DNA of 21,306 nt, taken from positions 1 to 21,306 of the IMG/VR virus record IMGVR_UViG_3300047468_000076. One strand, written 5' to 3'. The notes below the pieces were generated by a model, which saw nothing but the letters and a program-made list of their open reading frames with translations, did not search any database and was not told the origin of the DNA. Shown piece by piece: positions 1,387-21,306 of the stretch. Position numbers and translations under genes: made by a program. Source of the DNA: a virus. The stretch's first letter is position 1. Every line of letters begins with the position of its first letter.

Positions 1387-1418
1387 CAACCGGTGCACCG
1401 GTGCACCGATTCGCCGGT
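1387..1418. repeat. Array of four 8-bp units (ACCGGT type) between spike and wedge genes
   Basis: In 8-bp phase the sequence reads CAACCGGT, GCACCGGT, GCACCGAT, TCGCCGGT, followed by GC. Similar arrays occur at 15418, 16731 and 17302. This one begins 9 bp after the spike stop codon and is the only copy inside the late tail operon. See the finding on candidate RHH binding sites. Confidence 0.7.
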
Positions 1419-1457
1419 GCTCTTGCGCTTCGGTCGACTCTGCCTGTACAGCCCGGC

Positions 1458-3082: not shown

Positions 3083-3678
3083 CGCTCACGCACAACCCTG
3101 ACGTGGTGACCCAAGGGCAAGCGCTGCCTATCTACGACCTGCGCACGCCGAAGTTTCTCGCGCTGCTCGCCACCTACCTCGAGCAGGTGCAGCAGCTCGA
3201 AGACGCTATCTACGATGTCTTCGTCGGAACGATGCTGCCGGGCGCAGAGGGCGACGCGCTCGACATGCTCGGCGAGCTCATCGGACAGCCGCGCGCCGGC
3301 CGCGACGACTTCACCTACAAACTCTGGATATCGGCGCGCATCATGCTCAACAAGTCGAGCGGTAGACCGCCCGACATTCTCGGAATCGCTCGCGCCATCA
3401 TGCCGCCGGGCGGCACCATCCTGCTCGAGGAATACTTCCCCGGGGCGTTCAAGCTCGAGCTGCTCGGCCTCACGTTCGCAACCACGGGCGTGCAGCTTCG
3501 CCAGGTATTTCAGGAGGCGAAAGCCGCGGGCGTGCGCATCGACGTTATCTTCTCCGCGGCCGACCTGGGCGAGCAGTTCACGCTCGGCGGCGCCGCTGTC
3601 ACTCCGGATATCAACGTGCAGCAAGGCTTCGCGGACATCGCGCAAACGACCGGCGGCCAGCTCGTCGGTGTGGTGTAG
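3079..3678 (+). CDS. Tail protein, P2 gpI / DUF2612-like
   Basis: The 199-aa product starts at GTG 3079 inside the J stop. Motifs such as LEDAIYDVFVGTMLPGAEGDALDMLGELIGQPR, followed by DDFTYKLWISARIMLNKSSGRPPDIL, match the 'L..A..A.G..LD.LG..VGQPR.G..D..YR..I..RI..N.S.G' pattern I know from DUF2612 and gpI-like baseplate proteins. These sit between gene J and the tail fibre and connect the fibre to the baseplate. The position here is exactly that. The C-terminal part (ATTGVQLRQVFQEAKAAGVRIDVIFS) is also typical. Mu gp48 is the functional equivalent. Confidence 0.78.
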   Translation: MTLTHNPDVVTQGQALPIYDLRTPKFLALLATYLEQVQQLEDAIYDVFVGTMLPGAEGDALDMLGELIGQPRAGRDDFTYKLWISARIMLNKSSGRPPDILGIARAIMPPGGTILLEEYFPGAFKLELLGLTFATTGVQLRQVFQEAKAAGVRIDVIFSAADLGEQFTLGGAAVTPDINVQQGFADIAQTTGGQLVGVV

Positions 3679-3680: not shown

Positions 3681-6600
3681 ATGGCAATCACACTCACGTT
3701 CGACCAAGTAGACGCAGGCATCCCGGCCGGCAGCGTCGACCGCGGCCGCACCGACATCAAGAGCACCGGAGCTGTCGCCGCGACGCGCGCGCACACCGTG
3801 ACGATCACGGTCGGCAACATCCCGACCGGTGCGCTCGTCGACGTCGTGCTGCTCGACGAGCCGCCCAACAGTAACCCCCTACTCACGCAGCTCGCGCCGG
3901 AGACGTGGACGCTCGAGTTTGATATCGGGTGTTGGGGTCCGTTCCGTGTGCGCGTCACGGCCACCGCGAGCGGCCAGGTGGTGTCATCTGTCACGCGGCG
4001 CATCTCGATTCGCTCGCCGGGCTACCACATCGACTACCCCGGGCTCGCCGAGAGATACGACCCGAACGCGACGCTCGTGCCGACCGTGCCGTCGGTCGAG
4101 TTGACGGAGATGAATGAGGGCTCTACCAACCGCCCTCTCGTCGACTTTCACCGACAGATGGTCGAAGCCATCGAAGGCGGCGTCGGCGGCGGCGGCGGCG
4201 GCGTAATACCCGACGGCAGCATCACCGAAGAGAAGCTCGCTCCCTCCCTTAGCGACAACCTGCTTCGCGCCGACGGGACGATACCCTTTACCGGCGACCA
4301 GAATGCCGCCGGGCACATCATCCATAACGTCGGCGTCCCACTGCTACCAGGCGACGCCGTGCCGCTCTCGAGCGTCATCGCGGCCGTCAACCGCGCCGGC
4401 ACACGCACGCCGTGCCGACTCGTTGCAACGATTCCGATCACTGCGTCGAATACGCAAGTAGTCGACTCGGTCGCCACCGTGAACGGCGACCGCGTGCTGC
4501 TCACGGCGCAAGCGTCGCCAGTCGACAACGGCATCTACATCGCCAACGACGCCGGCGCGTGGCTGCGCAGCAGCGACGCAGACTCAAGCGAAGAGCTCCT
4601 GCCGGGCATGGTGATATTCATCACCGCCGGCACCGCCTTCGCGGACAGCGGGTGGATACTCTCGACCGATGCGCCGATCTTGCTCGGCACGTCGGCGCTT
4701 ACGTTCACGCGGTTTACTGGCTCCGCGCAGCTAATCGCCGGCGCCGGGCTTACGAAGACCGTTAACTCGCTCGACGTAGTCGCGCACGCTGACGGCTCGA
4801 TAGTCGTGTCTGCAGACGCCGTGCAGGTCGGCACGCTCGCGACCGATGCGCAGCACGGGACGCGTGGCGGCGGCCCGCAGCATGCCGCTGCGACGCCGAG
4901 CGTTGCCGGGTTCCAATCGGCACTCGATAAAACCAAGCTCGACGGCATCGCCAGCGGCGCCGCTGCGCTCTCGAGCTCGGCGCCGGCGAACGTCGGCACG
5001 GCAGCCGCGGTCGGCGTCGGCACGACGGCCGCTCGAAGCGACCACGTGCATGCGCACGGCGCGCAGACCGACGGCACGCTGCACGCAGCTGCGACAACGA
5101 GTGTTGCTGGATTCCAATCGGCACTCGATAAAACCAAGCTCGACGGCATCGCCAGCGGCGCCGCGGCGCTCTCGAGCTCGACGCCGGCAGCCGTTGCGTT
5201 TACGGGCTCGGTCGGCGTCGGCACGACGGCCGCTCGAAGCGACCACGTGCATGCGCACGGCGCGCAGACCGACGGCACGCTGCACGCCGCAGCGACGCCG
5301 AGCGTTGCTGGATTCCAGTCGGCACTCGATAAAACCAAGCTCGACGCGATCGCATCGGGCGCCGCTGCACTCACCACCAACGCGCCGACGCAAATCACTG
5401 TCACGACCGCCGCCGTCGGCGTCGAGACGGCAGCGGCCAAGGGCGACCACGTGCACAGTGTGTCGACGGCCGCACCGTCCGCGCTTGCCGTCGGCGGAGC
5501 GCAGAGCACCGGCTCGGCGACGTCGCTCGCGCGCAGCGACCATGCGCACGCCATGCCGGGGCTCGTCACGACCGCGGCAGATGGGTTTGCATCGGCGGCC
5601 GACAAGCTCAAGCTCGACGGCTTGGCAACCGGCGCCGCGGCGCTCACTGGGACGGCGCCGGTCGCCGTCGACAATGCGGCGGCCGCGGTCGGCGTCGGCA
5701 CGACCGCTGCGCGACACGACCATAAGCACACCGTGAGCGTCGGCACGCCCGTCGCGCTCACCATCGGCGGCGCGAACGCGCAAGGCTCGGCGACGACGGT
5801 CGCGCGCAGCGATCACACGCACGCCATGCCGGGGCTCGTCACGACCGCGGCAGATGGGTTCGCATCGGCCGTCGACAAGCTCAAGCTCGACGGCGTCGAG
5901 ACTGGCGCGCAGGTCACCTCGTTTGCGCGCGTGCAGACGGCGCTCGCTGCGGCGAGCTCCAACGTCGGCTTCAATGCTCAGCGTCTAACCAGCGTCGCCG
6001 ACCCGACCGCCGCACAGGATGCCGCGACAAAAGCCTATGTGGACGCCGTCGCCCTAGGACTCGATACCAAGGCGTCCGTGCGTCTCGTTGCGACCACCAA
6101 CGTCGCCGCGCTCACTGGCGCCGTCGCCATCGATGGCGTCACGACATCGGCCGGCGACCGCGTGCTGCTTACCGCGCAGACCGCAGGCAGTGCAAACGGC
6201 ATATACACGACCGCTGCCGGCGCTTGGGCCCGCTCGACCGACGCTGACAGCTCGGCAGAGGTCAACTCTGGCATGTATGTGTTTGTTACCGAGGGCACCG
6301 CCAACTCAGACAGCGGATGGGCCCTCACCACCAACGACCCGATCGTGCTTGGTACGACCCCCCTCGCGTTCACACAGGTTTCCGGCGCCGGCCAAATCAT
6401 CGCCGGCGCCGGTCTGACGAAGACGGGCAACCAGCTTGACGTCGTTGCGCACGCCGACGGCTCGATTGTGGTCGCCGCCGACAGCGTGCAGCTCGGCGTG
6501 ATTGCGACCGACGCGCAGCACGGCGCGCGCGGCGGCGGCACGTTGCACGCAGCAGCCATTGCCGGCGGAGCGTCTGGCTTTCTCACGGGCGTCGACAAAA

Positions 6601-9212: not shown

Positions 9213-9937
9213 CGCTTGGCATCATGACAGTGCCGGAACGCGCGGAGCATTGCCGGCGACTCGTCGAGCGCGTCGGCGGCGAGGTTCGCGTGCACGTCGA
9301 CATCAACCGGCGAGGTTGCTGGCCGGCGTGGAAAGCGACTTGGGTCGCGTGCGCGCTAGCCCAACCGCGCGCGACGCACATCGCGATCCTCGCCGACGAC
9401 ATCGCCGTGTGCTCTGACCTACGCGCGACGCTCGAGACGCTCGTCGCTGCGCGGCCGCACTCGCCGATCGCTGGCTGGCTGCCGCGCGACCAGGTCGAGA
9501 TCGCGCACGCGCAAGGCTTGCGATGGGCAAGCACCCGGCGACTGCAGTTCGTTCAACTGCTCGTGCTGCCGCGCGAGCTCGGCGACCGAGCGCTCGACTG
9601 GGTGTGCGACCGCGAGCATCTCTTCGGCGACCTGTGGGGCACATGGGACGACGAGCGCTTGCGAGCGTTTACGCTCGCCAACGAGCTCGACGTCTTCGTG
9701 CCGGTCCCAAATATCTGCGATCACTTAGGCGGCGACGGCACCATCAAGTCGACCTTCGGGCACCGCTTCGCGGCGGAGAGCGCACGCGCGCGCGTGTGGC
9801 TCGGCGAAGACGGTCGCGGCGCAACGCTCGACTGGTCTGACCTGCGCGCCGTCGGCGACCAACCGGTGCACCCCTATCGCATCCCGCGCATCCTGCTTAC
9901 GCCCTACAACACCAGCCACGACGAGGTGCCGCTATGA
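9206..9937 (+). CDS. Putative phage glycosyltransferase
   Basis: The 243-aa product starts at ATG 9206, overlapping the fibre stop (9210-9212). It opens with a strand MLALGIMTVPERAEHCRRLVERV, then EVRVHVDINRRGCWPAWKATW. The short acidic motif ILADDIAVC at residues 61-69 resembles the DXD nucleotide-sugar/metal site of GT-A fold enzymes. Later come a region of the type LFGDLWGTWDDERLRAF and CDHLGGDGTIKS near residues 171-182. This layout resembles family-2-like glycosyltransferases found near phage tail genes. It could modify fibre or virion proteins or surface glycans. The frame extends upstream to 9158, but those residues lie within the fibre gene's end, so ATG 9206 is preferred. Substrate is unknown. 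Confidence 0.55.
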   Translation: MLALGIMTVPERAEHCRRLVERVGGEVRVHVDINRRGCWPAWKATWVACALAQPRATHIAILADDIAVCSDLRATLETLVAARPHSPIAGWLPRDQVEIAHAQGLRWASTRRLQFVQLLVLPRELGDRALDWVCDREHLFGDLWGTWDDERLRAFTLANELDVFVPVPNICDHLGGDGTIKSTFGHRFAAESARARVWLGEDGRGATLDWSDLRAVGDQPVHPYRIPRILLTPYNTSHDEVPL

Positions 9938-10305
9938 GCTGCGCTGGAGCCCTGCCGGCTCAAATCAATCTCGTGCCGGCCGCCGTGCAAATCCGCGTCG
10001 CGATCGGGGCGTCGGTCGGTCTGCGACTGAGCGCTGTGCATTCGGACGGCACGCCGTTCGACCTCGCGCCGTACACGGTGACAGCGCCGTTCTCGCCCAC
10101 GCACAGCGCTGTGCCGCAAATCCCCGGGTGGGCGGTCGTTGTCGAGGGCACCTTCGTACTGCTCACGCTCTTGCCCGCAGACACGTCGACGCTCGCGCCT
10201 ACGGGCAAGCCTGCGACGTGGCATTGGGACGTATGGCTCGCGCACTCGACCGCACCGGAGCGGCTGCTATTCGCGCACGGCGACCTCGCGTTACTCACAC
10301 CGTGA
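9934..10305 (+). CDS. Small beta-rich phage structural protein
   Basis: This 123-aa product overlaps the preceding gene by ATGA (9934-9937). The sequence pattern is a stretch of beta strands: QIRVAIGASVGLRLSAVHSDGTPFDLAPYTVTAPF, then a second half FVLLTLLPADTSTLAPTG, and WHWDVWLAH. I recognise the general type: small Ig-like proteins encoded near tail fibres with 'G.T..L...D.DG.P.DLTGYT....' and 'Y.WDL.L..'. They are thought to be virion-attached connectors or upper-baseplate components. No catalytic residues are apparent. Exact function is unknown. Confidence 0.6.
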   Translation: MSCAGALPAQINLVPAAVQIRVAIGASVGLRLSAVHSDGTPFDLAPYTVTAPFSPTHSAVPQIPGWAVVVEGTFVLLTLLPADTSTLAPTGKPATWHWDVWLAHSTAPERLLFAHGDLALLTP

Positions 10306-10314
10306 GGGCTCAAC

Positions 10315-11124
10315 ATGGCAACCCAGAGATGCACAGTCACCGTCACCGCGCAGCCCGCAGGCAGCCCCGGGCCCGTCGGACCCGCGGGTCCGGTCGGGCC
10401 CGCGGGTCCTCCTGGAGCTGGCGGCGCAGCGACCGTGCTCGCGCCCTACTTGACGCCGCCGCTGGTGGCTGCCGCACTAAATGACGAGTTTGACGCCGGC
10501 TCGCCGGTGCTCGGCGATCGCGGATGGACGGCTCTGCACAACGGCACCGGCGAGCTGCTCACGCGCAAGGGCGAGGTCACGACGGCGGCGCCCGTGCTGG
10601 GCCCGACCGAATACAACTCGACGCTCGTCAATGGGGTGATTCGAATCCAGTCGACGAGCGGCATGCGGCTAACAAAAGCGCTGTCAGCGCCGCAGACGCA
10701 GATCGCTGCGCGCTTCACCGACCCGCGCATGAACACGTCGCAAGTGATTCAGATGCAGCTGACAAACGTCGCTGGAGCGCACGACCCGACGACGGTCGCG
10801 CTGAGCTACGGCTATTTGTGGGGCAACCGCTGCCGGTCGTACAAGTATCTCGACCTGACGCCGACCACGCTCAGCACGGTTGTGCCGGGCGTTGACGACG
10901 GTGCTTACGTGTTTGTGCAGGATTGGCGCCCCTCTGATTCGCGGTGGGGTAGCGCGGTGATCAATCCACACACGCAGCGCATCCTGCGCGTCGACGGTGG
11001 TGGGTTTGCACCTCTAACGCCGACGCGTGCCGGCTTCGAAATCCTCACGGTCGCCGCGACGTTTGCGTGGGTCGAGATCGATTACATCCGCGAATATCCA
11101 TACGGCAGCTGGTTTCCGGCGTGA
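10315..11124 (+). CDS. Collagen-like tail fibre / adhesin protein (269 aa)
   Basis: The product has an N-terminal strand (MATQRCTVTVTAQPAG), then a short collagen-like run of Gly-X-Y triplets near residues 18-36 (GPVGPAGPVGPAGPPGAGG), then a globular beta-rich domain of about 220 residues. That domain contains FDAGSPVLGDRGWTALHNG and ends in ATFAWVEIDYIREYPYGSWFP. The layout resembles a trimeric fibre with a carbohydrate-binding or laminin-G-like head, but the fold call is inference. The triplets probably trimerise the chains. The next gene shares the N-terminal plan (short beta segment then collagen), so the two may be alternative or additional fibres on the same baseplate. Confidence 0.65.
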   Translation: MATQRCTVTVTAQPAGSPGPVGPAGPVGPAGPPGAGGAATVLAPYLTPPLVAAALNDEFDAGSPVLGDRGWTALHNGTGELLTRKGEVTTAAPVLGPTEYNSTLVNGVIRIQSTSGMRLTKALSAPQTQIAARFTDPRMNTSQVIQMQLTNVAGAHDPTTVALSYGYLWGNRCRSYKYLDLTPTTLSTVVPGVDDGAYVFVQDWRPSDSRWGSAVINPHTQRILRVDGGGFAPLTPTRAGFEILTVAATFAWVEIDYIREYPYGSWFPA

Positions 11125-11133
11125 GGTGATGCC

Positions 11134-11607
11134 ATGTCGACAGATGAGTTTTGCGAGCTGACTGTCATTGTGTCACCTGCCGGATCGCCGGGGCCCGCAG
11201 GTCCGACCGGGCCCGCGGGTGCGGACGGAGCCGCAGGTCCTGTCGGGCCGCAGGGGCCGCAGGGGCCGCAAGGTGAGCCAGGATCGGGTGCCAGCGTGGC
11301 GATACCCTTGTCCAACAAAGCTATGCCAGCGTCCATCACCACCGCTCCGCACATGCTGGCGTGCGCAACACCCTTGGCCGTCACGCCGAATGCGGACGGC
11401 TATTTGCATGTGTTCGTCAACGGCGTTGCGTACACGCTCGGCGATGCATCACGCGCCAGCGACTTCTATTTCTCGGTCGACGCCGGCGCAACGGCCAAGC
11501 CGATCGCCAGCCTCGACGCGGGTGACCTGCTTTACCAAGGCAGCGGGCTCGCGTTCAACCTCGACGCCGGCGACGTCGTCGCATTCCTAACACTGGCCAC
11601 GCCATGA
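11134..11607 (+). CDS. Collagen-like structural protein (157 aa)
   Basis: Start ATG 11134 follows an AGGTGA-like ribosome-binding sequence. Residues about 15-53 are collagen-like triplets (GPAGPTGPAGADGAAGPVGP, then GPQGPQGPQGEPG). The C-terminal 100 residues form a small beta domain with LHVFVNGVAYTLGDASRASDFYFSVDAGA and LDAGDLLYQGSGLAFNLDAGDVV. This 'V.VNG..Y..GDG....D.YFS.DGG' pattern is common in small phage capsid- or tail-decorating proteins with a jelly-roll tip. It probably forms a trimeric decoration or minor fibre. Its stop overlaps the next ATG (ATGA, 11604-11607). Confidence 0.65.
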   Translation: MSTDEFCELTVIVSPAGSPGPAGPTGPAGADGAAGPVGPQGPQGPQGEPGSGASVAIPLSNKAMPASITTAPHMLACATPLAVTPNADGYLHVFVNGVAYTLGDASRASDFYFSVDAGATAKPIASLDAGDLLYQGSGLAFNLDAGDVVAFLTLATP

Positions 11608-12587
11608 CTATCAAACTCAAGCAGATAGACCTACCGCCCGGCATGTCGACGACCGCGGTCACCGACGGCGCGTTGCTCACCGGCACCGAAGCGGCCGAGC
11701 TCATCGCGGGTGTGGACGGCACCAACCACGCCCAATTTGTCGCGACGGAAGCCGATGGCCGGGTGAAGATCTCAGACGGCGGCGTGCCGTTGCGGATCTC
11801 TGTGCCGTCCGTAGCAGATGCTGGCAACAGCACCGACACGCCGCTTGCTGCTAACGGCACCTTCACGGGCGCCGCGGTGTTCGTGCAAGACTACGCAGCG
11901 ATCGGCGTGCACGCGTTTGCTAACGTGGGGTCAGCCACTGACGGGCTGAAAATGCAGTGGTCAACAGACGGCGTTCTCTGGAGTGAGACGCTCGCCTTTA
12001 CGCTGCTACCGAGCCTCCCGGGCTCGTATACGGTCGGACCGCGAGCGGCGTATTTCCGCGTCGTGTTCACGAACGGCGGCACGGCACAGACTACGTTCCA
12101 CATACAGACCATCCTGCATTACACGGTGGTGCGCACCGGGACTATTCGCATCTCCGATGTGACTCACCCCGAATCCGACGCGTCGATCGTCAAATCGGTG
12201 ATCACGGGCCGCACGACTCAGGGCGGCGGCGGGTACGTCGACGTCAAGGTCGCGCCGTCCGGCGCAGTGGCGATCGACGGCTCGGTCACGGTCTCGAATT
12301 TCCCAGCATCGCCAGGTGCACCAGCTACGGCAACCGTTGCCAGCGTCGCCGCCGCCATCACGCCCGTTACGCTGCTCGCGAGCAATGCACTGCGCAGGGG
12401 ATCGACAATCCAGAACGACTCAACATCGCCGCTGTATCTCAAGCTCGGCAGCGCTGCTTCGAGCTCGAGCTACACATGCCTCATGGTACCGGGCTCTTAC
12501 TATGAAACGCCGTACGGCTACACCGGCCTCATTACCGGTGCATGGGCCTCGGCAGTGGGTGCCGCTCTAGTGACGGAGGTTGCATAA
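11604..12587 (+). CDS. Phage structural protein, function unknown (327 aa)
   Basis: The gene is coupled to the preceding collagen-like gene by ATGA. The N-terminus (QIDLPPGMSTTAVTDGALLTGTEAAELIAG) is followed by DGTNHAQFVATEADGRVKIS. The middle has a beta-sandwich look (TPLAANGTFTGAAVFVQDYAAIGVHAFANV, then LKMQWSTDGVLWSETLAFTLLPS and YFRVVFTNGGTAQTTFHIQTILH). The C-terminus has SSPLYLKLGSAASSSSYTCLMVPGSYYETPYGYTG. These segments resemble proteins annotated simply as phage virion or fibre-associated proteins. Position inside the fibre block suggests a virion component. I see no enzyme motif. Confidence 0.55.
   Translation: MTIKLKQIDLPPGMSTTAVTDGALLTGTEAAELIAGVDGTNHAQFVATEADGRVKISDGGVPLRISVPSVADAGNSTDTPLAANGTFTGAAVFVQDYAAIGVHAFANVGSATDGLKMQWSTDGVLWSETLAFTLLPSLPGSYTVGPRAAYFRVVFTNGGTAQTTFHIQTILHYTVVRTGTIRISDVTHPESDASIVKSVITGRTTQGGGGYVDVKVAPSGAVAIDGSVTVSNFPASPGAPATATVASVAAAITPVTLLASNALRRGSTIQNDSTSPLYLKLGSAASSSSYTCLMVPGSYYETPYGYTGLITGAWASAVGAALVTEVA
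12575..12580 (+). promoter_or_regulatory. Shine-Dalgarno sequence GGAGGT deciding the start of the glycine-rich fibre gene
   Basis: A strong GGAGGT lies 8 nt before ATG 12589. It makes that ATG the start rather than a TTG at 12580 in the same frame. It lies inside the last codons of the preceding gene. Confidence 0.7.
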
Positions 12588-12588
12588 C

Positions 12589-14388
12589 ATGCCTCTCTAT
12601 CCACCAATCCCCGGTGCGGGTAGCGGCGGGCTCATGCCGCACCCCGGTCTAGTCGGCGATCCGGCAGTCGGCGAGTACGTGATAGCGGACCCGGCGTCAT
12701 GGCCGCTGATTACGCTGCCGGTGACGACCGAGGTTGGGGCGCGTGTCGGCGTATATGCGCCGCTCGGAATCGATGTCGTGCCGCCTGACGGTTACGGCTT
12801 GATCCACGGCGCATCTAGCACTGACTCGGCAACGCCACGCCACTTAGCAGGGCCCACGTATGCAGAGTGGGTCCTTACGGATATGGCAGGGTCCGGCACC
12901 GGGCCGTATGCCTGGGTTCAAGGCGGCGGCGGCGGCGGCGGGCTGGTTGTGGCGCGCGACAGTTCGTCACCGTGGGTCGGCGAATGGGCGAACGCAACTG
13001 GGCCGGGACCGCAAGGGGTTACCGCGCCCGTGTCGAGCGAAGTCAACTCACGCTTCGGCGTGTACGTGCGCGCCGATGCCGCTGGAACGCAGCTGCAAAT
13101 CACGGCCGGCAGCCTGCGATTAGGCGTGGACCACTACGAAGCACCGGCATCGCTCACGCTCGACGCCGGGGCTTATTACGAGTGGGTACTGATTAGGGAT
13201 CCGTTTGACCTTGGGTACGAATGGATCCCGGCGGGACAGTCGTATGCATCGGGCGGCGGCACTGAGGGCCCCATGGGGCCGGCGGGGCCGGAAGGGCCGG
13301 CGGGTCCGCAAGGGCCGCAAGGCATACCGGGGACATCGGGCGGCGGCGGTTTTAGGGTCGGGTATCTTGTAGCCGGTACGTATACGTACGTAGTACCGGC
13401 GAACCACACCGTCACGGGCGTGTGGCTCGCGCCGGGGGCGGGTGGTGGCTCAGGCGGATCGGGCGGCGGGGGCGGCGCAACCACGCCTAACACCAGCGGC
13501 GGCGGCGGTGGCGGCCGCGGCATGGCCGGCGGCGCATGCAACCTAGTCCTAGCTCCGGTAACTCTGACAGCCGGTGAAAGCCTGACGATCATTGTAGGTG
13601 CTGGCGGCCCTGGAAGCGCGGGTGCGGCCGGTGGTGCAGTCGGCACCGTTGGGTCAAATTCACTTGGCGCCCCCGTTAGCCTTGCCGGCGGGCCCTCGAG
13701 TGTCACTCGTGCGGCGGGGTTGGCGGTCAAAACTGCCGAGCTGTTAAACGGCGCCACTGGGGCAAGTCCCGGCGGCGGCGCTGGCACTGCTACCGGCGGA
13801 GCCGGCTCTACCGCTGCGGGTACATTCGGCGTGCACTGGCCGTACCCACTCACGGGCCCGGCACTGCCGCTCACAAACGGTGGCGCAGGCGGCACAGGCA
13901 CGGCTGCCGGGGCCACGTCTGCAAAGATGGTTTTGGCGAGTGCTATGTGGTCTCAGGGCCTTGGCGCATCTGACTACATCGTCACGCCGGCAGCGGGTGT
14001 CGGCGGTGCAGCCGGTGGCGCTGGCGGCGGCGGCGGCGGTGGCGCTGGTAGCTGCGGCTCGCCAACTCATCACGGTTGGGAAGTCGCGCTGATGGGCTCA
14101 ATCCCCCCGCAGACCGGCGCGGGCTCGGGTGCCGGTGGCACGCCGGGTACTGGTGGCGCGGGCGCCGTGGCCGGTGCAAACGGCAACGTGGGCTTGCCGG
14201 GGGGCAATGGCTGGGATGGCAGCATGGGTCGCGGCGGCGGCGGCGGCGGCGGCGGGGGTGGCGGCGGAGGTGCGCCGTCCGGCTTCGTGGCTGGCGCTGG
14301 CGGAGCCGGGGGCAACGGCGGCAAGGGTAGCGACGGCGCCGTGATCCTCGAGCTGCGACCGGTGACCGTGCCGCCGGTCGTCGACTAG
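12589..14388 (+). CDS. Glycine-rich and collagen-like tail fibre protein (599 aa)
   Basis: The N-terminal 220 residues contain two similar beta modules. One contains VTTEVGARVGVYAPLGIDV and the second has PVSSEVNSRFGVYVRADAAG, each followed by a YEWVL or YAEWVL strand, which suggests a tandem duplication. A collagen run lies near residues 224-250 (GPMGPAGPEGPAGPQGPQG). A strand TYTYVVPANHTVTGVWLAPG leads into about 330 residues of Gly-rich sequence with repeated GGGGGG runs. This matches the glycine-rich domain proteins known from phage adhesins, where Gly-rich segments can form polyglycine-II bundles. It probably binds receptors or forms a minor fibre. GGC/GGT microsatellites underlie several Gly runs and may expand or contract in frame. 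It is the last gene of the late block. Confidence 0.7.
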   Translation: MPLYPPIPGAGSGGLMPHPGLVGDPAVGEYVIADPASWPLITLPVTTEVGARVGVYAPLGIDVVPPDGYGLIHGASSTDSATPRHLAGPTYAEWVLTDMAGSGTGPYAWVQGGGGGGGLVVARDSSSPWVGEWANATGPGPQGVTAPVSSEVNSRFGVYVRADAAGTQLQITAGSLRLGVDHYEAPASLTLDAGAYYEWVLIRDPFDLGYEWIPAGQSYASGGGTEGPMGPAGPEGPAGPQGPQGIPGTSGGGGFRVGYLVAGTYTYVVPANHTVTGVWLAPGAGGGSGGSGGGGGATTPNTSGGGGGGRGMAGGACNLVLAPVTLTAGESLTIIVGAGGPGSAGAAGGAVGTVGSNSLGAPVSLAGGPSSVTRAAGLAVKTAELLNGATGASPGGGAGTATGGAGSTAAGTFGVHWPYPLTGPALPLTNGGAGGTGTAAGATSAKMVLASAMWSQGLGASDYIVTPAAGVGGAAGGAGGGGGGGAGSCGSPTHHGWEVALMGSIPPQTGAGSGAGGTPGTGGAGAVAGANGNVGLPGGNGWDGSMGRGGGGGGGGGGGGGAPSGFVAGAGGAGGNGGKGSDGAVILELRPVTVPPVVD

Positions 14389-14522: not shown

Positions 14523-14544
14523 ACACGCGACCGCGCTCGCGGCG

Positions 14545-15063: not shown

Positions 15064-15070
15064 ACGCCGC

Positions 15071-15394
15071 CTACCCTACCAGCGGCAACGCCAGTTGCGC
15101 GCCGCTGCCGGCCTCGAGCGCGGCCGGGCCGCACTTCACCAGCGGCTTGAGCCGACCGTCCGCGTCGCTGGCAATGATCACCGCCCAGAGCCGAGCCCGC
15201 AGCCGGGCGCTCGCGCGTCGGCAGCCACGCTCGACCATCGCCAGCGTGTCGGCCGTGCAGCCCGCGAGCTGCGCCAGGTCGTTTATCCGCATGCGCCGCC
15301 CGCTCGGCAGCCGCTGCAGCTTGCGCCAGCGCCGAATCTCGAGCCCTTCGCCCTTCACTCCGCGCGCCGCCAACTGCTCGATTGTGAGTTCCAT
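15071..15394 (-). CDS. Helix-turn-helix DNA-binding protein, 107 aa
   Basis: Residues about 36-72 (RINDLAQLAGCTADTLAMVE, followed by RGCRRASARLRARLWAVI) have the spacing of an XRE/Cro-type helix-turn-helix: a helix, LAQLAGCTADTL as the turn and recognition helix, then a packing helix. It could be the phage-plasmid's repressor or a copy-number or partition regulator. The region upstream of its start (15395-15457) carries an array of five 8-bp units, which suggests that another protein, possibly the RHH product, controls it. It is followed after 7 bp by the 93-aa gene. The target is unknown. Confidence 0.6.
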   Translation of the reverse strand: MELTIEQLAARGVKGEGLEIRRWRKLQRLPSGRRMRINDLAQLAGCTADTLAMVERGCRRASARLRARLWAVIIASDADGRLKPLVKCGPAALEAGSGAQLALPLVG

Positions 15395-15417
15395 CGCTGC
15401 ACCGCCAGTCTACCGAA

Positions 15418-15457: not shown

Positions 15458-15482
15458 ATACCACATATCCGCTATAAGCGCC

Positions 15483-15517: not shown

Positions 15518-15535
15518 GCTACCACGCGTTACCCC

Positions 15536-15952
15536 CTAACGTCGCTTGCGCGCCGCCAGCTCATTGCGCGCTATCCATTCCTTCGCCGCCGTCTCGGCCG
15601 CTTCGGACGCGCTCAGGTCGAGCGCTTCGGCACGCTCGGCGAGCCGCTCGAGCGTCGCCGTGGTGAGCAGCGCGGCGCCGCCGCCGAAGAATCGCTCGAG
15701 CGCATCCGCGACAACGGTCGACATCTCGATGCGCCGGCTCGCGCAATGGGCGCGCAGCTTCTCGCCGATCGCTTTGGGCAAGTAGCTCGTCACCCGGTCT
15801 AGCTCAGCCTTGCGCCGCCGGTGCACGAGCCCGCGCGCCGAGCCCTTCACCCCGGTGGGCTTGTCGACGAGCTCGAGCGCCAGGTCGTCGACGCCGGAGC
15901 CAGGGATAGCCGTTTGCCGCGAGCGCGGCGACGCCATGGGACGCGCTTTCAT
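15536..15952 (-). CDS. Ribbon-helix-helix partition partner / centromere-binding protein
   Basis: The 138-aa product starts at ATG 15952, overlapping the ParA stop (ATGA, 15949-15952). Residues about 52-90 (DRVTSYLPKAIGEKLRAHCA, then RRIEMSTVVADALERFF) fit a ribbon-helix-helix fold: a DNA-contacting beta strand with alternating residues followed by two helices and the typical 'S.VV..AL..F' end. The N-terminal 50 residues are basic and probably flexible, as expected for RHH partners that stimulate ParA. In type Ib partition (ParF/ParG, delta/omega) this gene follows parA and binds short repeats near the parA promoter. The 8-bp arrays at 16731 and 15418 are strong candidates for its sites. It has no ParB HTH domain. 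Confidence 0.7.
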   Translation of the reverse strand: MKARPMASPRSRQTAIPGSGVDDLALELVDKPTGVKGSARGLVHRRRKAELDRVTSYLPKAIGEKLRAHCASRRIEMSTVVADALERFFGGGAALLTTATLERLAERAEALDLSASEAAETAAKEWIARNELAARKRR

Positions 15953-16668
15953 GTGCGCACCTCGGCCGAGCGCACGGCTCGCTTGTCGGCGGCTGCGCCG
16001 CGTCTGGGTATGCGGCCGTCGGCGAGCTCTTCGAGCTCGGTCGCCAGCTGCCGCACCTCGCTCGCCGCCGCGCTCTTCGGGGCGTACTCAGTCACGCCGA
16101 GCCCGGCCGCGAACGCGTACCCGTAGTCGACCCGGTAGCAGCACTTGGTCTCGAGCGTCGGCAGCCCGACTTCGGCGATGGCCGCTTCCGCGTGTCGACC
16201 CATCAGCGTCTGTCCATCCCACCGTGTGAGCAGCGCCACGGCGATGCACGCGGGGCGCCGCTTCATCTCGGCGCGCGCGAGCGCGGCCGCGTCGTAGAGC
16301 GCCCACATCTCTTGCGCGGTCGAGCCGGTCGGAATGACCATCAGGTCGGCCATCGCGGCCGCGGCCGCTTGCACGTCGGCCAGCTGCGGGGGCGTGTCGA
16401 CGATCACGACATCAAACCCTTCGCCGATCTTGCGCAGCTGCTTGGCCAGCTTCGCCGCCGGCATCGCGCGCACGACGGGGGCATGCTCGAGCGCGTGGCC
16501 CCCTCGCTCGGCGGCAAGCCCAAGCCACGTCACCACGTGGCGCTGCGGGTCTGTGTCGACGATCAGCACGCTCAAGCCGCGCGCGCGCCATTCGACGCCG
16601 AGCGAGACGGCCGTCGTCGTCTTGGCGACGCCCCCTTTGTGGTTGGTCACTGCAACGGTGTAGCTCAT
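15949..16668 (-). CDS. parA: ParA-like partition ATPase (type Ib, small)
   Basis: This 239-aa protein from ATG 16668 shows a deviant Walker A motif KGGVAKTT at residues 11-18, with the signature lysine (K11) and K16. It also shows VDTDPQ at 37-42 and the Walker B-type VVIVDTPP at 87-94. It lacks the N-terminal HTH extension of P1-type ParA, which together with the RHH partner defines a type Ib partition ATPase. It should form ATP-dependent patches on the nucleoid that move plasmid copies apart. GTG 16674 is an alternative start two codons upstream. A GGCTCTAG box lies 18 bp upstream of the ATG and an 8-bp array 63 bp upstream. It is the best evidence that this phage genome is kept as a plasmid. 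Confidence 0.85.
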   Translation of the reverse strand: MSYTVAVTNHKGGVAKTTTAVSLGVEWRARGLSVLIVDTDPQRHVVTWLGLAAERGGHALEHAPVVRAMPAAKLAKQLRKIGEGFDVVIVDTPPQLADVQAAAAAMADLMVIPTGSTAQEMWALYDAAALARAEMKRRPACIAVALLTRWDGQTLMGRHAEAAIAEVGLPTLETKCCYRVDYGYAFAAGLGVTEYAPKSAAASEVRQLATELEELADGRIPRRGAAADKRAVRSAEVRT

Positions 16669-16676
16669 AGGCACTA

Positions 16677-16705
16677 GCCGTAGCGCTAGAGCCCGCGAGC
16701 GTCAA
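16677..16705 (-). promoter_or_regulatory. Candidate parA promoter (TTGACG ... TACGGC)
   Basis: On the - strand TTGACG (16705-16700) is followed after 17 nt by TACGGC (16682-16677). A start around 7 nt later would make a nearly leaderless parA message. The spacer contains the GGCTCTAG box, so a protein binding there would block the promoter. The -10 is weak. Confidence 0.3.
16686..16701 (-). repeat. 16-bp GGCTCTAG-family box, copy B, at parA
   Basis: CTAGAGCCCGCGAGCG is identical to 14428-14443. It lies between parA and the 8-bp array at 16731, inside the candidate promoter spacer. Confidence 0.6.
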
Positions 16706-16730
16706 TGCCTTGGTGGCTCGGTAGCTCTGC

Positions 16731-16770
16731 GCACCCATCGACCGGTGCGCCGGTGCTCCGGTGCATCGAA
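16731..16770. repeat. Array of five 8-bp units upstream of parA (candidate centromere/operator)
   Basis: In 8-bp phase the units are GCACCCAT, CGACCGGT, GCGCCGGT, GCTCCGGT and GCATCGAA. The array lies between parA (-) and the gene at 16807 (+), the place where type Ib partition systems carry their RHH-bound repeats. Confidence 0.75.
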
Positions 16771-16806
16771 AATACGGTCTTCGTTCGATTGTGTTAGAAG
16801 GCCCCC

Positions 16807-17103
16807 ATGGGCAACTTCTACGACCGGAAGGGGCAGCCGATGACACTCGAAGAGTGGTCGTCTGCATTCGAGGACTTCGAGGGGCGACGAATCGCTGCGG
16901 ACGAGTTGTACGGGTACACAGTTTCGACAGTGTGGTTGGGCGCCGACCACGGCTTCGGTCGCAGCGCGAAGCCGCTCATCTTTGAGTCGATGGTGTTCCA
17001 CGCCACAGAGCCGGAAGAGTGCCGTCGCTACGCGACCGAGGATGAGGCGCGAGCCGGTCATGCCGCGCTCGTCGCCGAGGTCAAGCTCGCGCACGGCAAC
17101 TAG
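16807..17103 (+). CDS. Conserved phage-type hypothetical protein, 98 aa
   Basis: The start ATG 16807 is preceded by AGAAGG. The product reads MGNFYDRKGQPMTLEEWSSAF, then VSTVWLGADHGFGRSAKPLIFESMVFHA, and ends YATEDEARAGHAALVAEVK. I recognise this 'FYD..G.P....EW...F.D....V..T......VSTVWLG.DH.F....P..FE.MVFG......RY.T...A..GH..MV' pattern from many phage and bacterial accessory genes, where its role is unknown. It is divergent from parA, with 138 bp between their starts holding the array and the GGCTCTAG box. Confidence 0.75.
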   Translation: MGNFYDRKGQPMTLEEWSSAFEDFEGRRIAADELYGYTVSTVWLGADHGFGRSAKPLIFESMVFHATEPEECRRYATEDEARAGHAALVAEVKLAHGN

Positions 17104-17370
17104 GGCAGCAGGGCGGCGCACCCGTTGACAGACAGGCATTTCTGAGTTTTCGGGATTTACGCCCGATAATGACCATTATGTAAACTCACCCACACTATGG
17201 GTGTGCTCGCGCAGAGGACTTCCGATCTGCACCCCTAAGTCAGCGGAACTGCTCGGCGCTCGGACGAAGAGGCTTAAGAAAAAGGCGTTTTGATCCGCAG
17301 TGCACCGGTGCATAGATGCGCCAAGCCACTTGGCGCTTGACGGTCGAGCAGGCTGCCTCTACTCGGTCGA
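17104..17370. other. Regulatory-looking intergenic region of 267 bp with palindromes
   Basis: This stretch is visibly richer in A and T than its surroundings. It holds GATAAT (17165-17170), a possible -10, overlapping the palindrome ATAATG-AC-CATTAT (17166-17179). A second inverted repeat, CACCCA-N5-TGGGTG, lies at 17187-17203. Further right are the 8-bp array at 17302 and an 8-bp hairpin at 17318-17336. The stem GCCTC(t)ACTCG/CGAGTGAGGC (17355-17377) covers the GTG start of the next gene. Together they look like a promoter with at least two operators. No gene is evident. Confidence 0.5.
17302..17325. repeat. Array of three 8-bp units upstream of the GIY-YIG gene
   Basis: Units GCACCGGT, GCATAGAT and GCGCCAAG are in phase. 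The last unit is also the left arm of the hairpin GCGCCAAG-CCA-CTTGGCGC (17318-17336). The array is about 45 bp upstream of the GTG start. Confidence 0.65.
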
Positions 17371-18420
17371 GTGAGGCCACTTCAACGCAAGACAACGAGC
17401 CCGGCGCAGCTTCCCTTCGCATGGGATGATGCGCCGCCAACCGAGCGCTCGGAGTCGCCGGCGCTGCCCGTGGTTGTTAGACCGCCGCAGCTCGAGCCGA
17501 CGGTCACGCTCCACCGCGGCACGCCGGAAAGCCTGGTCTACATGATCGAGGCGGTCGGCTCAGGCCTCGTGAAGATCGGCCGCAGCCAACGAAATCCCTA
17601 TGTCCGTATCGGCGAGCTCGGCACCGGCGCTCAGTTTCCTCTCAGCATCCTCCGCGCGATCCCGGGCGGGTCTGCCGCCGAGACTGAGTTGCATCGACGG
17701 TTTGACGACCACCATTCCCATGGTGAGTGGTTTTTCCTCGAGCCGATCCGTGCGGCGCTCATGGCATTGGAAACGATCAGGCTCGGAGACTGGCGTCCGC
17801 GCTGCGCAGGCTGCGGGAAGCCCATCCATTCGACTCGTCAAGTGCGATGCCGGCCGTGCGCCTCACAGCATATCCGCGATGCGGCGACGGCACGCTACGC
17901 GGCAGCGGGCACCCCGCGGCCGCACTGCGCGGTCTGCGACAAGGTCGTTGACCACGGAAGCAAACATTGCCCGCAGTGCGTCGCGAAGATACGCAGCCAA
18001 CGGGGCTTGCATAAGCGCTTTCGTCAGCCATGCGTTGACTGCGGTGGCCGTGTTAGCGCGGCCGCCTGCAAACGTTGCGGCCCATGCGAAAAGAAACGGC
18101 GCTCCCTAGTGGCAGCCGCACGAACAAGAGTCGGCGGCGCTCCTTGCTTGGACTGCGCGGGTCCGACGAGCGCGCCCGGGGTGAAGCGCTGTCATCGATG
18201 CGCATTCAAGCGCCGAAGTACCACTCCGCAATGCTTAGGTTGCGCCACGCCGATCGGCTTCGGAAGTAAGCATTGCAAGCCTTGCAGCAACAAGAGACGA
18301 AGCGCAGCTCGGAACCAACCCGCCGCCGATGCGTTGCCTCTATGGGCTGTCTCACTCGTGCGCGACCTCGAAGAGCCGACTCAGGTCGAGCTCGACGCCT
18401 TCGAACGGCGGCAGGCTTAG
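17371..18420 (+). CDS. GIY-YIG (MUG113/T5orf172-like) nuclease-domain protein with five zinc ribbons
   Basis: The 349-aa product from GTG 17371 has a GIY-YIG-like domain at residues about 55-130: SLVYMIEAVGSGLVKIGRSQ, then VRIGELGTGAQFPLSILRAI, AETELHRRFDDHH and GEWFFL. This is the pattern of the MUG113/T5orf172 subfamily, with a Y, a G-x-x-KIG core, an R and a catalytic-type E (E105). Five tandem CxxC-x10/11-CxxC zinc ribbons follow at residues 145-163, 186-203, 221-239, 259-277 and 288-305, each joined by basic linkers. It could be a DNA-binding nuclease (homing, anti-competitor or defence). The last 69 bp overlap the convergent Uma2 gene. The start codon is in a predicted stem. Confidence 0.7.
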   Translation: MRPLQRKTTSPAQLPFAWDDAPPTERSESPALPVVVRPPQLEPTVTLHRGTPESLVYMIEAVGSGLVKIGRSQRNPYVRIGELGTGAQFPLSILRAIPGGSAAETELHRRFDDHHSHGEWFFLEPIRAALMALETIRLGDWRPRCAGCGKPIHSTRQVRCRPCASQHIRDAATARYAAAGTPRPHCAVCDKVVDHGSKHCPQCVAKIRSQRGLHKRFRQPCVDCGGRVSAAACKRCGPCEKKRRSLVAAARTRVGGAPCLDCAGPTSAPGVKRCHRCAFKRRSTTPQCLGCATPIGFGSKHCKPCSNKRRSAARNQPAADALPLWAVSLVRDLEEPTQVELDAFERRQA

Positions 18421-18933
18421 CGCCGGTCGATACACATAGCGCTCGCACTTGTACACAGAGTGCGTAACCGGCATGTCGCACACGTCAATCCAGCGCTCGC
18501 GCGGATGCACCATCCAATAGAACGGCACCTCCATCGCAGCATACAACTCGCGCTTCGTCTTGCGGTCCCGTTGCGGCTGCTTCGAGAGCACCTCACACAC
18601 CCAGTCCGGGCGCTCTTCGAAGATGCCTTGATCCATGTCGGTCGGCGCGCGGTCTATCCGCCAGCCTGCGACGTCGGGGACCACGTATTCACGCTCGTCG
18701 CTCTCGCACAGCGCCTTCGGCAGGTAGACGCCGCAGCCCGCCAGAATGAGCCACTCGCGCCGACCACCACGCTTGCCGCCGCCGAGCTCGTCGTCGAGTT
18801 GCCGGCAAAGGTTACCGGCAACGAGATTGTGCCGAGCGCTCGGCGGTGGGTAAACAACGAGCTCGCCAGCGAATATCTCGGACCGTACGCCGTCGGGTAG
18901 GGCGTCGCGAAGCTGCTCGAGCGGGGTGCGCAT
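18352..18933 (-). CDS. Uma2 family (DUF820) PD-(D/E)XK nuclease-like protein
   Basis: The 193-aa product has the Uma2 layout: an N-terminal SEIFAGELVVYPPPSARHNLVAGNL, then VVPDVAGWR (D87), and PDWVCEVLSKQPQRDRKTKR (E114, K125/K127), followed by YAAMEVPFYWMVHP. The acidic residues and lysines are those expected for a PD-(D/E)XK core. Function of Uma2 proteins is not settled; they are abundant in Cyanobacteria, Myxococcota, Chloroflexi and other genomes. Its C-terminus overlaps the end of the GIY-YIG gene in antisense, and its start is 55 bp from the divergent 60-aa gene. Confidence 0.8.
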   Translation of the reverse strand: MRTPLEQLRDALPDGVRSEIFAGELVVYPPPSARHNLVAGNLCRQLDDELGGGKRGGRREWLILAGCGVYLPKALCESDEREYVVPDVAGWRIDRAPTDMDQGIFEERPDWVCEVLSKQPQRDRKTKRELYAAMEVPFYWMVHPRERWIDVCDMPVTHSVYKCERYVYRPALSLPPFEGVELDLSRLFEVAHE

Positions 18934-18988
18934 CGGCCAGAGCTTAGCACCCTTCGCGACGTCATGGCTTGCGGGCTACAGTCAGCCC

Positions 18989-19171
18989 ATGACCGACCCC
19001 GTCACCGTGCAACTATTGCCTGAACTCGAAGAGATTCTGCTCGAGCGTGCGCGCAAGCAGAACCGCGACCCCGGCGAGCTCTTGATCGAGATAGTCACGC
19101 GCGAGCTCGACGCGCAGGACGCCGACCCGGAGCGCCGCGCCGCATTCATCGCGCGCCTAAAGGCCCGCTAA
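18989..19171 (+). CDS. Small ribbon-helix-helix-like protein, 60 aa
   Basis: ATG 18989 begins MTDPVTVQLLPELEEILLER, followed by ARKQNRDPGELLIEIVTREL and a charged tail. The first strand (VTVQLLP) and two helices with a 'DPGELLIEIV' turn match the RHH/antitoxin type. It is divergent from Uma2, sharing a 55-bp promoter region. No toxin gene is adjacent; the scrambled gene starts 15 bp after its stop. It may be an orphan antitoxin or repressor. The frame is open upstream to 18926, but the earlier residues look like non-coding sequence. Confidence 0.55.
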   Translation: MTDPVTVQLLPELEEILLERARKQNRDPGELLIEIVTRELDAQDADPERRAAFIARLKAR

Positions 19172-19186
19172 AGGTTATTAGCGCGT

Positions 19187-19845
19187 GTGATCCGCCGCGG
19201 TATAAGCCGACACCCCCATCCCGTCGTCGCGCATCCGCCATGCGGCCCGTGGTCGCGTCTCAGCTTCCTGTGTACGAAGCAAGACGCCAGCTGCGCACCG
19301 CGCGCCGTCGTAGCGCTTCGCGTCGCGCGTCTCGTCCCAGCAATCCACGCCGGCACGTCGACGCGTATTGGCAGCGGTCGCGGCTGTCAAGCGACAGACG
19401 GCCATGGATGGATAGGGGCCCGTTGCGTCGACGTAGAGGGCGGCGACCTGTCGAGCAAGTGCGCCGCTTCGGCGGCGTGCTCGAGCACCCGCAAGCGTCG
19501 CAGCTCTGGCGTGCATGCCGGCTGCCGCGCCCCGGCGAGCTGCCGGACGAATACGGCGGCCGCTCTTACGAGGTGATGCAAGTCGCGTGGGGCCATGCCT
19601 GCAAGAAACCCACGTGGCTCTACGTCGTCGGCGTCGACTCAGAGCTCGTCATGCGCGGCATCAAGACGGGCGGCGAGCCCACCCATCGCATCACACGCGG
19701 GCCACGGGGCCCGCAACTCGCCCGCGCGAGCGCGAAGGTAGGCCGTCTGTCGCCGCCGGCGTTCGCACAGTGGCTCGTCGACCTCGCTCGAGCATCACGC
19801 ACCCAACGCCTCGCTACGGCGAGAGAGACGCACGCGGCTCTGTAG
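19187..19845 (+). pseudogene. Scrambled phage gene of the 'VVAHPPC...GGVLEHP' family
   Basis: The left part (frame of 19187) encodes HPHPVVAHPPCGPWSRLSFL then CTKQDASCAPRAV, ending at about 19309. The right part, in another frame, encodes VEQVRRFGGVLEHPQASQLW, then LPRPGELPDEYGG, WGHACKKPTWLYVVGVD and FAQWLVDLAR, ending 19845. From memory these belong to one phage protein family in the order 'YVD..GPYP..(V)D.WD..RDAR.Y.GP-HPVVAHPPCGPW..-AVEQVR..GGVLEHP'. Removing 143 bp (19310-19452) fuses left and right in frame at CAPRAV-EQVRR. The N-terminal block is not upstream; it is in the 143 bp, inverted (next entry). No product of normal length is expected. Function of the family is unknown to me. 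Confidence 0.65.
19310..19452 (-). other. Inverted 143-bp segment carrying the scrambled gene's own N-terminus
   Basis: Read on the - strand this insert encodes AALYVDATGPYPSMAV, a short linker, then GVDCWDETRDAKRYDG. These look like the start of the same family (first strand and 'VDCWD..RDA..Y.G' motif). The segment separates the plus-strand parts, has the trinucleotide GTC at both edges (19307-19309 and 19450-19452), and its length is not a multiple of three, so it causes the frame shift between halves. Confidence 0.55.
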
Positions 19846-19930
19846 GAGCGACCGCGCCTTCGAAGCTCTCTCGCGCCAACGTCGTGCGAGCAAACGGCGT
19901 TTACGCACCACGGCTACACGCGCTCGCGAG

Positions 19931-19987
19931 CTAGAGCCTTGGCGCGCTAGCGCGCGAGCTAGAGCGCCGGACTAGAGTCTCCGAGCG
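19931..19987. repeat. Cluster of CTAG boxes beside the origin
   Basis: Boxes are CTAGAGCC (19931), the palindrome GCGCGCTAGCGCGC (19942-19955), CTAGAGCG (19959) and CTAGAGTCTCCGAGCG (19972). CTAG occurs four times in 45 bp, spaced 16, 12 and 13 bp. The last copy resembles the 16-bp boxes at 14428 and 16686. Confidence 0.6.
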
Positions 19988-19995
19988 CTATTTGC

Positions 19996-20026
19996 TTGAC
20001 ACGGGTCTGTGTCGCACATGTACGCT
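19996..20026 (+). promoter_or_regulatory. Candidate promoter pointing at the origin and rep antisense
   Basis: A perfect TTGACA lies at 19996-20001. The best -10 candidates, TGTACG (17-bp spacer) and TACGCT (19-bp spacer), are weak. Transcription would run through the iterons and antisense to the 3' end of rep. Confidence 0.3.
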
Positions 20027-20178
20027 CGCGCGTGCGCGGTCTCAGTTAACCGAGAGACTAGGCTTACGCTCTCCGTTGAAACGTCGTCAGAAGAGAATCT
20101 CGCAATCTGGCAGAGTTCCCAGACTCAGATCAGTTGCTTCTAAGCGCCGATCCATGCGCGCGCGCGAGACGCGACGGA

Positions 20179-20239
20179 CCATGTCTGGAAGGGTCCTGGC
20201 CATGTCTGGAAGGGTCCAAGGCCATGTCTGGAAGGGTCC
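20179..20239 (+). repeat. Three 18-bp iterons (CCATGTCTGGAAGGGTCC)
   Basis: Identical copies lie at 20179-20196, 20200-20217 and 20222-20239, with start-to-start distances of 21 and 22 bp, about two helical turns. They sit between rep's 3' end and the CTAG cluster and next to DnaA boxes. They are the expected binding sites of the TrfA-like initiator. Confidence 0.85.
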
Positions 20240-20257
20240 CCGCGAATGGTGCTAGTG

Positions 20258-20277
20258 CGGGGATAACGTGTGGATAA
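20258..20277 (-). promoter_or_regulatory. DnaA boxes at the origin
   Basis: TGTGGATAA at 20269-20277 is the exact reverse complement of TTATCCACA, a perfect match to the consensus DnaA box. A second, 7-of-9 copy (CGGGGATAA) lies 11 bp to the left at 20258-20266. Their position 19-30 bp from the iterons fits an iteron-type oriV loading host DnaA. Confidence 0.75.
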
Positions 20278-20344
20278 CCTACCAACAGGTAGGGAACGCA
20301 AGCGCGCGCGTTTGGACCGTCGACGATCCGTCGGTGCCGGCCGC

Positions 20345-21121
20345 TTAGCGCTCAGTGGAAACAACGTCGCCGGCGAAGCTCACAGGCTCAGCGCCGCTGT
20401 TGCGAAGCTCTGCAACAGCAGATTTCACGCGCCGCCGCACTTGCTCGCGTGGCTGGCCAGGTGCGACGCGCTCGCGAATCGCTTCGAGCGTCACGCTCGG
20501 CGCCGCCGCCAGACAGAGTTGCACCCATTGCGCGAGCGGCCGGTTGCCGATCGTGTGTCGCTTCGCCTCCGACACGCCGACCATCCCGAGCGCCATCACG
20601 TCGAGCATGACTTCGTTGGCCCACAGCGTGACGGTAGAGCCGGTTGCCGATGCGCCGAGCAGCACACCGCCTACCGTCGTGCGCTCGCGACCCTCGCGAA
20701 ACCACACCACCGTTGCGCTCAGATCGAGCAAGAGACGCCACAAGTCTTCGAGGTGCAGCAGCCCGCATTTGCGACCCAAACGCCGGTTTATAGTGGCGAG
20801 AGTGACCGTCAACCGCGCGCCGGGCCCGCTGTCGCTCAGGTGCTCAAGCGCGACCATCAGTACATCGGCATGTGCTTGAGTGAGCTCGCAGCCGTGCAGC
20901 TGGTAGACGCGTTGGGCGCCTTCCACATCGACCGCTCGCTTGCGAGTGCGAGCCTTGCCGACGTGCGAAGCTGTGAAGACGTTTGCGCGGACGAGCTCTA
21001 GCGGCATCTGGAGGGTACCCGATCGGCATCGTGGCACGCGTTCGAGCGGCGCGCGAGTACGTGAAAGTGCGCTCTCGGCAAGAGCCTTGAGCTTGTCGGC
21101 CGCATCTGCTTTACTCGCCAT
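20345..21121 (-). CDS. TrfA-like plasmid replication initiator
   Basis: The 258-aa protein starts at ATG 21121 (alternative GTG 21124) after AGGGA. The middle matches the TrfA family as I know it: PLELVRANVFTASHVGK, then a short beta segment RVYQLHGCELTQAHADVLMV, ALEHLSD, and LTVTLATINRRLGRKCGLLH followed by LEDLWRLLLDLSATVVWF. In TrfA the equivalent is 'R..LF......' then 'Y.GEQL.Q.DLDV...LLHLA' and the winged-helix 'LL..LGR....-.L...L..L'. The C-terminal half has a winged-helix look. It would bind the three iterons and recruit the host replisome. Its gene points toward the iterons, which lie beyond its stop. Confidence 0.75.
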   Translation of the reverse strand: MASKADAADKLKALAESALSRTRAPLERVPRCRSGTLQMPLELVRANVFTASHVGKARTRKRAVDVEGAQRVYQLHGCELTQAHADVLMVALEHLSDSGPGARLTVTLATINRRLGRKCGLLHLEDLWRLLLDLSATVVWFREGRERTTVGGVLLGASATGSTVTLWANEVMLDVMALGMVGVSEAKRHTIGNRPLAQWVQLCLAAAPSVTLEAIRERVAPGQPREQVRRRVKSAVAELRNSGAEPVSFAGDVVSTER

Positions 21122-21306
21122 CACGAATCCCTGTGCGGGGCTCTAACCCGCCGATTCAGGACGCCGCGCTGCTGATAACAGTGCGGTGTCGCCCTATGGC
21201 CTCGGAGCCATGTACGCCAGAGTAGAGCCCGGCAGACACTGCAACGCAAAGAAAATCGGCAATGTGCGGACGATTGCCTACCGCTTGCGAGCTGCTTTGC
21301 GGGCTT
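21122..21306. other. Upstream region of rep to window end
   Basis: No gene is visible. The stretch contains GGCTCTAA (21139) and TAGAGCCC (21224), diverged members of the CTAG box family. It also contains the inverted repeats ATGGC-N6-GCCAT (21196-21211) and GGCAAT-N9-ATTGCC (21258-21278). These could be operators controlling rep. Confidence 0.4.

Follow-up and report, generated by a model that had tools for sequence, protein, structure and literature searches.

A probable contractile-tailed phage-plasmid with a TrfA-type replicon that is exchanged as a cassette between relatives

Phage P1 combines a contractile tail with an iteron-type initiator, DnaA boxes and ParA partition. The Vibrio phages VP882, VP58.5 and vB_VpaM_MAR are also contractile-tailed, and their extrachromosomal prophages are linear plasmids with a protelomerase. 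P1 multimers are resolved by the recombinase Cre (PMC10879196), and the origin of the TrfA plasmid RK2 contains five 17-bp iterons and four DnaA boxes (PMC4980987). Here, we describe a TrfA-type replicon in the IMG/VR virus record IMGVR_UViG_3300047468_000076, the whole of which (21,306 bases) is referred to as the window. Gene content, synteny with relatives, circular assemblies, TrfA homology, the anatomy of the origin and the exchange of a replicon cassette make it very probable that the window is part of a temperate contractile-tailed phage-plasmid with a TrfA/iteron replicon, whose prophage would be a low-copy circular plasmid. A preliminary description, made from the window alone, had proposed such a combination, and it is supported by the head, terminase and tail genes of the relatives, by circular assemblies and by the lack of a detectable integrase in the window.

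Relatives were collected by searches with the initiator, ParA and the terminase, and 12 related records, designated by handles such as G001, were read beside the window. The clade comprises 24 contigs with a terminase identity of at least 69%, below which the next match falls to 43%. The replication and partition features of the window are as follows.

20037..21098, minus strand: exchanged replicon cassette (trfA, DnaA box and iterons); borders approximate, identity to G003 high on both sides and ~40-60% inside
20345..21124, minus strand: TrfA-type replication initiator, 259 aa, assigned by hhalign and by its AlphaFold2 (AF2) fold
20177-20196, 20198-20217 and 20220-20239, no strand assigned: three 20-bp iterons, GGCCATGTCTGGAAGGGTCC, with a spacing of 21-22 bp, putative oriV
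20269..20277, minus strand: exact DnaA box, TTATCCACA
15949..16674, minus strand: ParA partition ATPase (PHROG 164 ParA, E 4e-46; Pfam AAA_31, E 1e-20)
15536..15952, minus strand: ParA partner, putative centromere-binding protein, tentatively of the ribbon-helix-helix (RHH) type; overlaps the parA stop, 96% identity in G001 and G003

The window initiator alone had no direct match in Pfam, PHROGs, PDB sequences, phages or plasmids; its relationship to TrfA is visible only through relatives. The G003 homologue matches annotated plasmid TrfAs (Allochromatium, Arsenophonus, Aeromonas and Burkholderia; best tblastn E 5e-11, 86% of the query), and the distant G005 homologue narrowly passes the cut-off of Pfam TrfA (PF07042), the window copy lying below Pfam detection. 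In addition, an hhalign comparison with a profile of five plasmid TrfAs, including that of R751, gave a Prob of 99.7 and an E value of 4e-25 over 229 columns. The AF2 model (predicted local distance difference test score, pLDDT, 79.7) contains two winged-helix domains, as in iteron initiators, and its structural matches were RepE of plasmid F (Z 11.8), iteron-bound R6K Pi (Z 11.2), RctB and TrfA (9a0w, Z 6.5). These results place the predicted protein in the TrfA family and bear out the TrfA-like label that it had been given from the window alone. A search of 50,697 phage records revealed no TrfA homologue at E values up to 1 (up to 0.1 for the window copy).

The sequence downstream of trfA was compared in every clade member that extends there (n = 7; the window, G001, G003, G004, G008, G009 and G011). 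In all seven, TTATCCACA lies 68-99 bp after the trfA stop and is followed by an equivalent array of three repeats with a 21-22-bp period, within ~200 bp of the stop. The iteron triple of the window scores 54 of 54 against a null maximum of 33, and the best triples across the seven members score 46-54 of 54 against shuffle maxima of 33-39; even a degenerate DnaA box would be expected by chance only 0.21 times per window. Direct repeats at helical spacing with a DnaA box near the initiator gene correspond to the layout of a putative iteron origin (oriV), and the iterons and the DnaA box of the preliminary description are thus confirmed, as three copies of GGCCATGTCTGGAAGGGTCC and an exact TTATCCACA. 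This layout was not seen downstream of trfA in the more distant G010.

Paired GCTCTAGC/GCTAGAGC motifs were seen downstream of the iterons in the window (19922-19965), G001, G003 and G004 (L008 1038-1086; L015 12797-12845), and a single copy of this motif type lies just before parA in several genomes (window position 16685). GCTCTAGC was considered as a centromere motif and rejected, its counts being only slightly above those of shuffles. With these weak statistics, the pairs are possibly a centromere or a regulatory site.

The TrfA sequences fall into two groups with 27-33% identity between them, one comprising the window, G001 and G008 and the other G002, G003, G004, G009 and G011. The baseplate (J), capsid, terminase, CI and ParA proteins group otherwise, with the window, G001, G002, G003 and G004 on one side and G008 and G011 on the other. 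Between the window and G003, the DNA identity is 82-89% until just before trfA, 33-59% over the initiator gene and its iterons, and as high as 87% again beyond them, and the flanking pieces align in blastn at 86% and 80%. Both the sequence of the iterons and the direction in which the DnaA box points track the TrfA group, indicating co-inheritance. Because the identity drops sharply between conserved flanks, we conclude that ~1.06 kb carrying trfA and the origin has been replaced as a unit. Joint exchange is expected if the protein and the repeats work together, and is therefore our strongest evidence that the predicted origin is functional.

For phage-plasmids in general, the exchange of replication genes has been proposed as an escape from incompatibility (PMC10879196). 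The exchange seen here would most simply be explained by selection for such an escape from plasmid incompatibility. The idea itself is thus already published; as far as the searched collections and literature show, what is new is the use of a TrfA-family initiator for this purpose and the clean division into two alleles.

Apart from the window, six long contigs that belong to the clade or to its near relatives carry ParA. For the ParA partner, RHH_5 was matched by the G008 homologue at an E value of 4e-4, below the Pfam cut-off, and the AF2 model (pLDDT 52.7) is too poor to judge the fold. Of the ParA/RHH cassette first described, ParA is thus secured by both PHROG and Pfam, and the RHH label of its partner is weakly supported.

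The relatives share a common gene order, which runs from terminase through portal, protease, capsid, neck, sheath, tape measure and baseplate to the fibres, and continues with a small helix-turn-helix (HTH) gene, the ParA partner, ParA, a variable interval, trfA, a conserved 250-aa gene and a CI-like repressor. On the opposite strand from the CI-like gene, an HTH protein and a DnaC-like helicase loader lead to the terminase. The virion and packaging set of the syntenic relatives comprises terS, terL, portal, protease, capsid, sheath, tape measure and baseplate, of which the window holds the tail part only. A search for head, terminase and lysis genes had been suggested; head and terminase genes, together with the tail, were found in the syntenic relatives, and lysis genes were not identified among the virion and packaging genes of the window and these relatives.

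Identical contig ends were found in G003 (123 bp), G011 (141 bp) and G007 (31 bp), and the three assemblies are apparently circular. The G007 record (L128-L130) encodes ParA and a Cre-like recombinase. End repeats are absent from the window record itself.

Three further observations concern the relatives. The gene for the conserved ~250-aa protein (PHROG 874; L015 10653-11411 in G003, and homologues) separates trfA from the CI-like gene in those relatives that carry trfA, and its product may regulate the replicon. A Mom-like protein of G003 (L015 13422-13886) matches Pfam Mom at an E value of 5e-6, just under the cut-off, and is possibly encoded by a DNA modification gene; its G001 homologue adjoins the terminase instead. 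G010 (L140, L141), a 22-kb IMG/VR record of 57% G+C, has adjacent TrfA and ParA genes and none of the virion genes of the clade, and may represent a further type of TrfA phage-plasmid or a plasmid filed there in error.

From these features, the following scheme is proposed for a genome of ~43-50 kb, of which the window is a part. In the lysogen, the CI-like repressor gene, the conserved gene and trfA lie on one strand, an arrangement seen in the relatives, since the window stops just past trfA. TrfA would bind the three iterons beside its own gene and host DnaA the adjacent box, upon which the origin would open, while ParA and its small partner would segregate the plasmid copies and, in some relatives, the Cre-like recombinase would resolve multimers. 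Upon induction, the opposite-strand module, with the DnaC-like helicase loader beside the HTH protein, would probably drive lytic replication, followed by terminase packaging. Between relatives, trfA and the origin are exchanged as one cassette. We infer this assignment of the two replication modules to lysogeny and to lytic growth, and the extrachromosomal plasmid state of the prophage, its maintenance as a plasmid and the control of the promoters are likewise presumed.

Several observations weigh against a phage-plasmid with a TrfA replicon. G007, with its matching contig ends, has ParA and no recognisable TrfA, and the TrfA of G006 is marginal. Circularly permuted or terminally redundant virion DNA also yields identical contig ends. 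A parS array was not detected upstream of parA, k-mer enrichment there being not above that of shuffles. No host genome or isolate was found, and a lysogen has never been seen. Among genome contigs of 84,980 species, a non-exhaustive search with two short peptide patterns revealed no close terminase (best 42% over a fragment, others 31-37%), and, after a distant terminase match annotated Myxococcota, 377 genomes from that phylum yielded neither a near terminase nor a TrfA match. Finally, five relatives (G002, G004, G007, G008 and G011) encode a PF00589 tyrosine recombinase in or near the ParA-TrfA interval and could integrate.

These recombinases are also what speaks for an ordinary integrating temperate phage with borrowed plasmid genes, in which the tyrosine recombinase of the relatives is an integrase that has been lost, or is unrecognised, in the window and G003. 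However, neither the window nor the closed G003 yielded an integrase, a serine recombinase or a transposase, tblastn with the protein of the relatives gave no tyrosine recombinase match in the window, whose ParA-TrfA interval is intact, and none was found in G003; serine recombinases and rve transposases were absent from nine records. In addition, all 17 solved-structure matches of the recombinase were P1 Cre or its derivatives, and an integrated prophage would gain little from conserving a partition gene or from keeping an iteron origin intact. We consider an integrating phage unlikely, although integration may occur in some relatives, and any role given to their Cre-like recombinase is a guess. 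The earlier remark that no integrase is seen thus holds for the window and the closed G003, and not for the five relatives with the Cre-like enzyme. Lox-like palindromes near the Cre-like gene were sought, and the candidates, confined to single genomes and not shared, were discarded.

Less probable again is that the phage is virulent, or conventional in some other respect, and that TrfA and the iterons form its lytic origin rather than a plasmid replicon. Initiators with iteron origins do serve some phages lytically, as in the case of lambda O, and a plasmid state has not been observed here. However, trfA shares its strand with the repressor gene and faces the packaging and structural genes on the other, whereas the lytic strand carries the module with the DnaC-like loader; ParA would be useless to a purely lytic phage, and the exchange of the initiator type and the iterons does not follow the lytic genes.

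A misassembly joining a phage contig to a plasmid contig, which the preliminary description had named as a possible refutation and which no tool result favours, is excluded, because the same gene order is shared by independent records, including G003 and G011 with their matching ends, and because the window bridges the two ends of G001, to which W 13954-15952 and W 19808-21306 align. The circularity check is thereby answered by the three relatives with identical ends and by the joining of both G001 ends, and the gene order indicates a complete myovirus layout.

In the window, the tail block occupies the left two thirds on the plus strand, followed on the right by parA and its overlapping small gene (minus strand), a variable interval of ~3.7 kb and trfA (minus strand). 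The features outside the replicon and partition genes are as follows.

2..421, plus strand: baseplate hub, 3' part, cut by the left contig end (PHROG 196 baseplate hub, E 2e-29; 85-100% identity to the full-length hubs of G001-G003)
625..1377, plus strand: conserved protein at the baseplate spike position (same position in relatives, 68-99% identity)
1401..1907, plus strand: baseplate wedge, gp25-like (PHROG 120, E 5e-27)
1904..3082, plus strand: baseplate wedge, gpJ-like (PHROG 6, E 3e-51)
3079..3678, plus strand: baseplate protein at the gpI-like position (PHROG 1160 baseplate protein, E 4e-11)
3681..9212, plus strand: long repetitive tail fibre or virion protein (PHROG 11518 tail fiber, E 3e-54)
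9934..14388, plus strand: tail-tip and collagen-like fibre genes (9934-10305, 10315-11124, 11134-11607, 11604-12587 and 12580-14388; identity to G001 98-99% for the first four and 75% for the last)
15071..15394, minus strand: small helix-turn-helix protein downstream of the partition genes (72-99% conserved in relatives; HTH_31, E 0.005 in the G003 homologue)
17371..18420, plus strand: GIY-YIG/T5orf172-like protein with repeated zinc ribbons, accessory, in the variable ParA-trfA interval (Pfam MUG113, E 3e-9)

The baseplate block had been described as complete, which is true in the relatives and slightly overstated for the window, where the hub is cut. The protein at the spike position had no match in the PHROG search, and the longer open reading frame 367-1377 had no family match. 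Collagen-like tail PHROGs were matched by the fibre gene 11134-11607. The fibre gene 3681-9212 is highly repetitive, and its length and repeats are unlike those of G001, although the baseplate genes of G001 are otherwise 97-99% identical. A PHROG 12600 gene is split across two frames at 19187-19845 (N part 19187-19576, C part 19240-19845), which reflects either a frameshift or an assembly error.

The TrfA family, known from broad-host-range plasmids such as RK2, would thus join the replicons used by phage-plasmids. The lineage has so far come only from metagenomes, and its terminase has at best ~40% identity to any phage record searched. The literature searched contained no description of TrfA in a phage-plasmid of this kind; one Arsenophonus paper has both terms, for an integrated plasmid-phage mosaic region. 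Whether these genomes form an undescribed phage-plasmid lineage, in which a TrfA/iteron cassette with at least two mutually replaceable alleles recombines at conserved flanks independently of the repressor, partition and virion genes and incompatibility acts as a second superinfection-immunity system, we judge to be evenly balanced. As a clean natural example of near-identical phages that have exchanged a replicon cassette, the lineage makes the incompatibility-escape idea (PMC10879196) directly testable.

Among known systems, P1-type phage-plasmids resemble the one proposed here in their contractile tail, iteron-type initiator and ParA, and P1 Cre is the best solved match of the relatives' recombinase. 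They differ in that the phage here is about half the size, with a TrfA-family initiator and only three iterons, and no P1 record was among the nearest ParA or terminase matches. The combination that had been called unusual is therefore so in its TrfA family, which is the new part, whereas a contractile tail with an iteron initiator has a precedent in P1. The Vibrio phages VP882, VP58.5 and vB_VpaM_MAR are similar in size (~40 kb) and have ParA at 29-30% identity, but no TrfA was found in them. Aeromonas phage vB_AsaM-56 (Popoffvirus) has the nearest terminase among phage records (40%) and a similar order of head and tail genes, but a different early region with neither ParA nor TrfA annotated. 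Three TrfA plasmids inspected beyond R751 carry conjugation or type IV secretion system genes, with no virion genes annotated in the stretches read. RK2/IncP and the other TrfA plasmids share with the window a TrfA-family initiator and an origin with iterons and a DnaA box. In the window, three iterons and one DnaA box lie directly downstream of trfA, which suggests an origin of the same kind as that of RK2, in a smaller form and beside its own gene.

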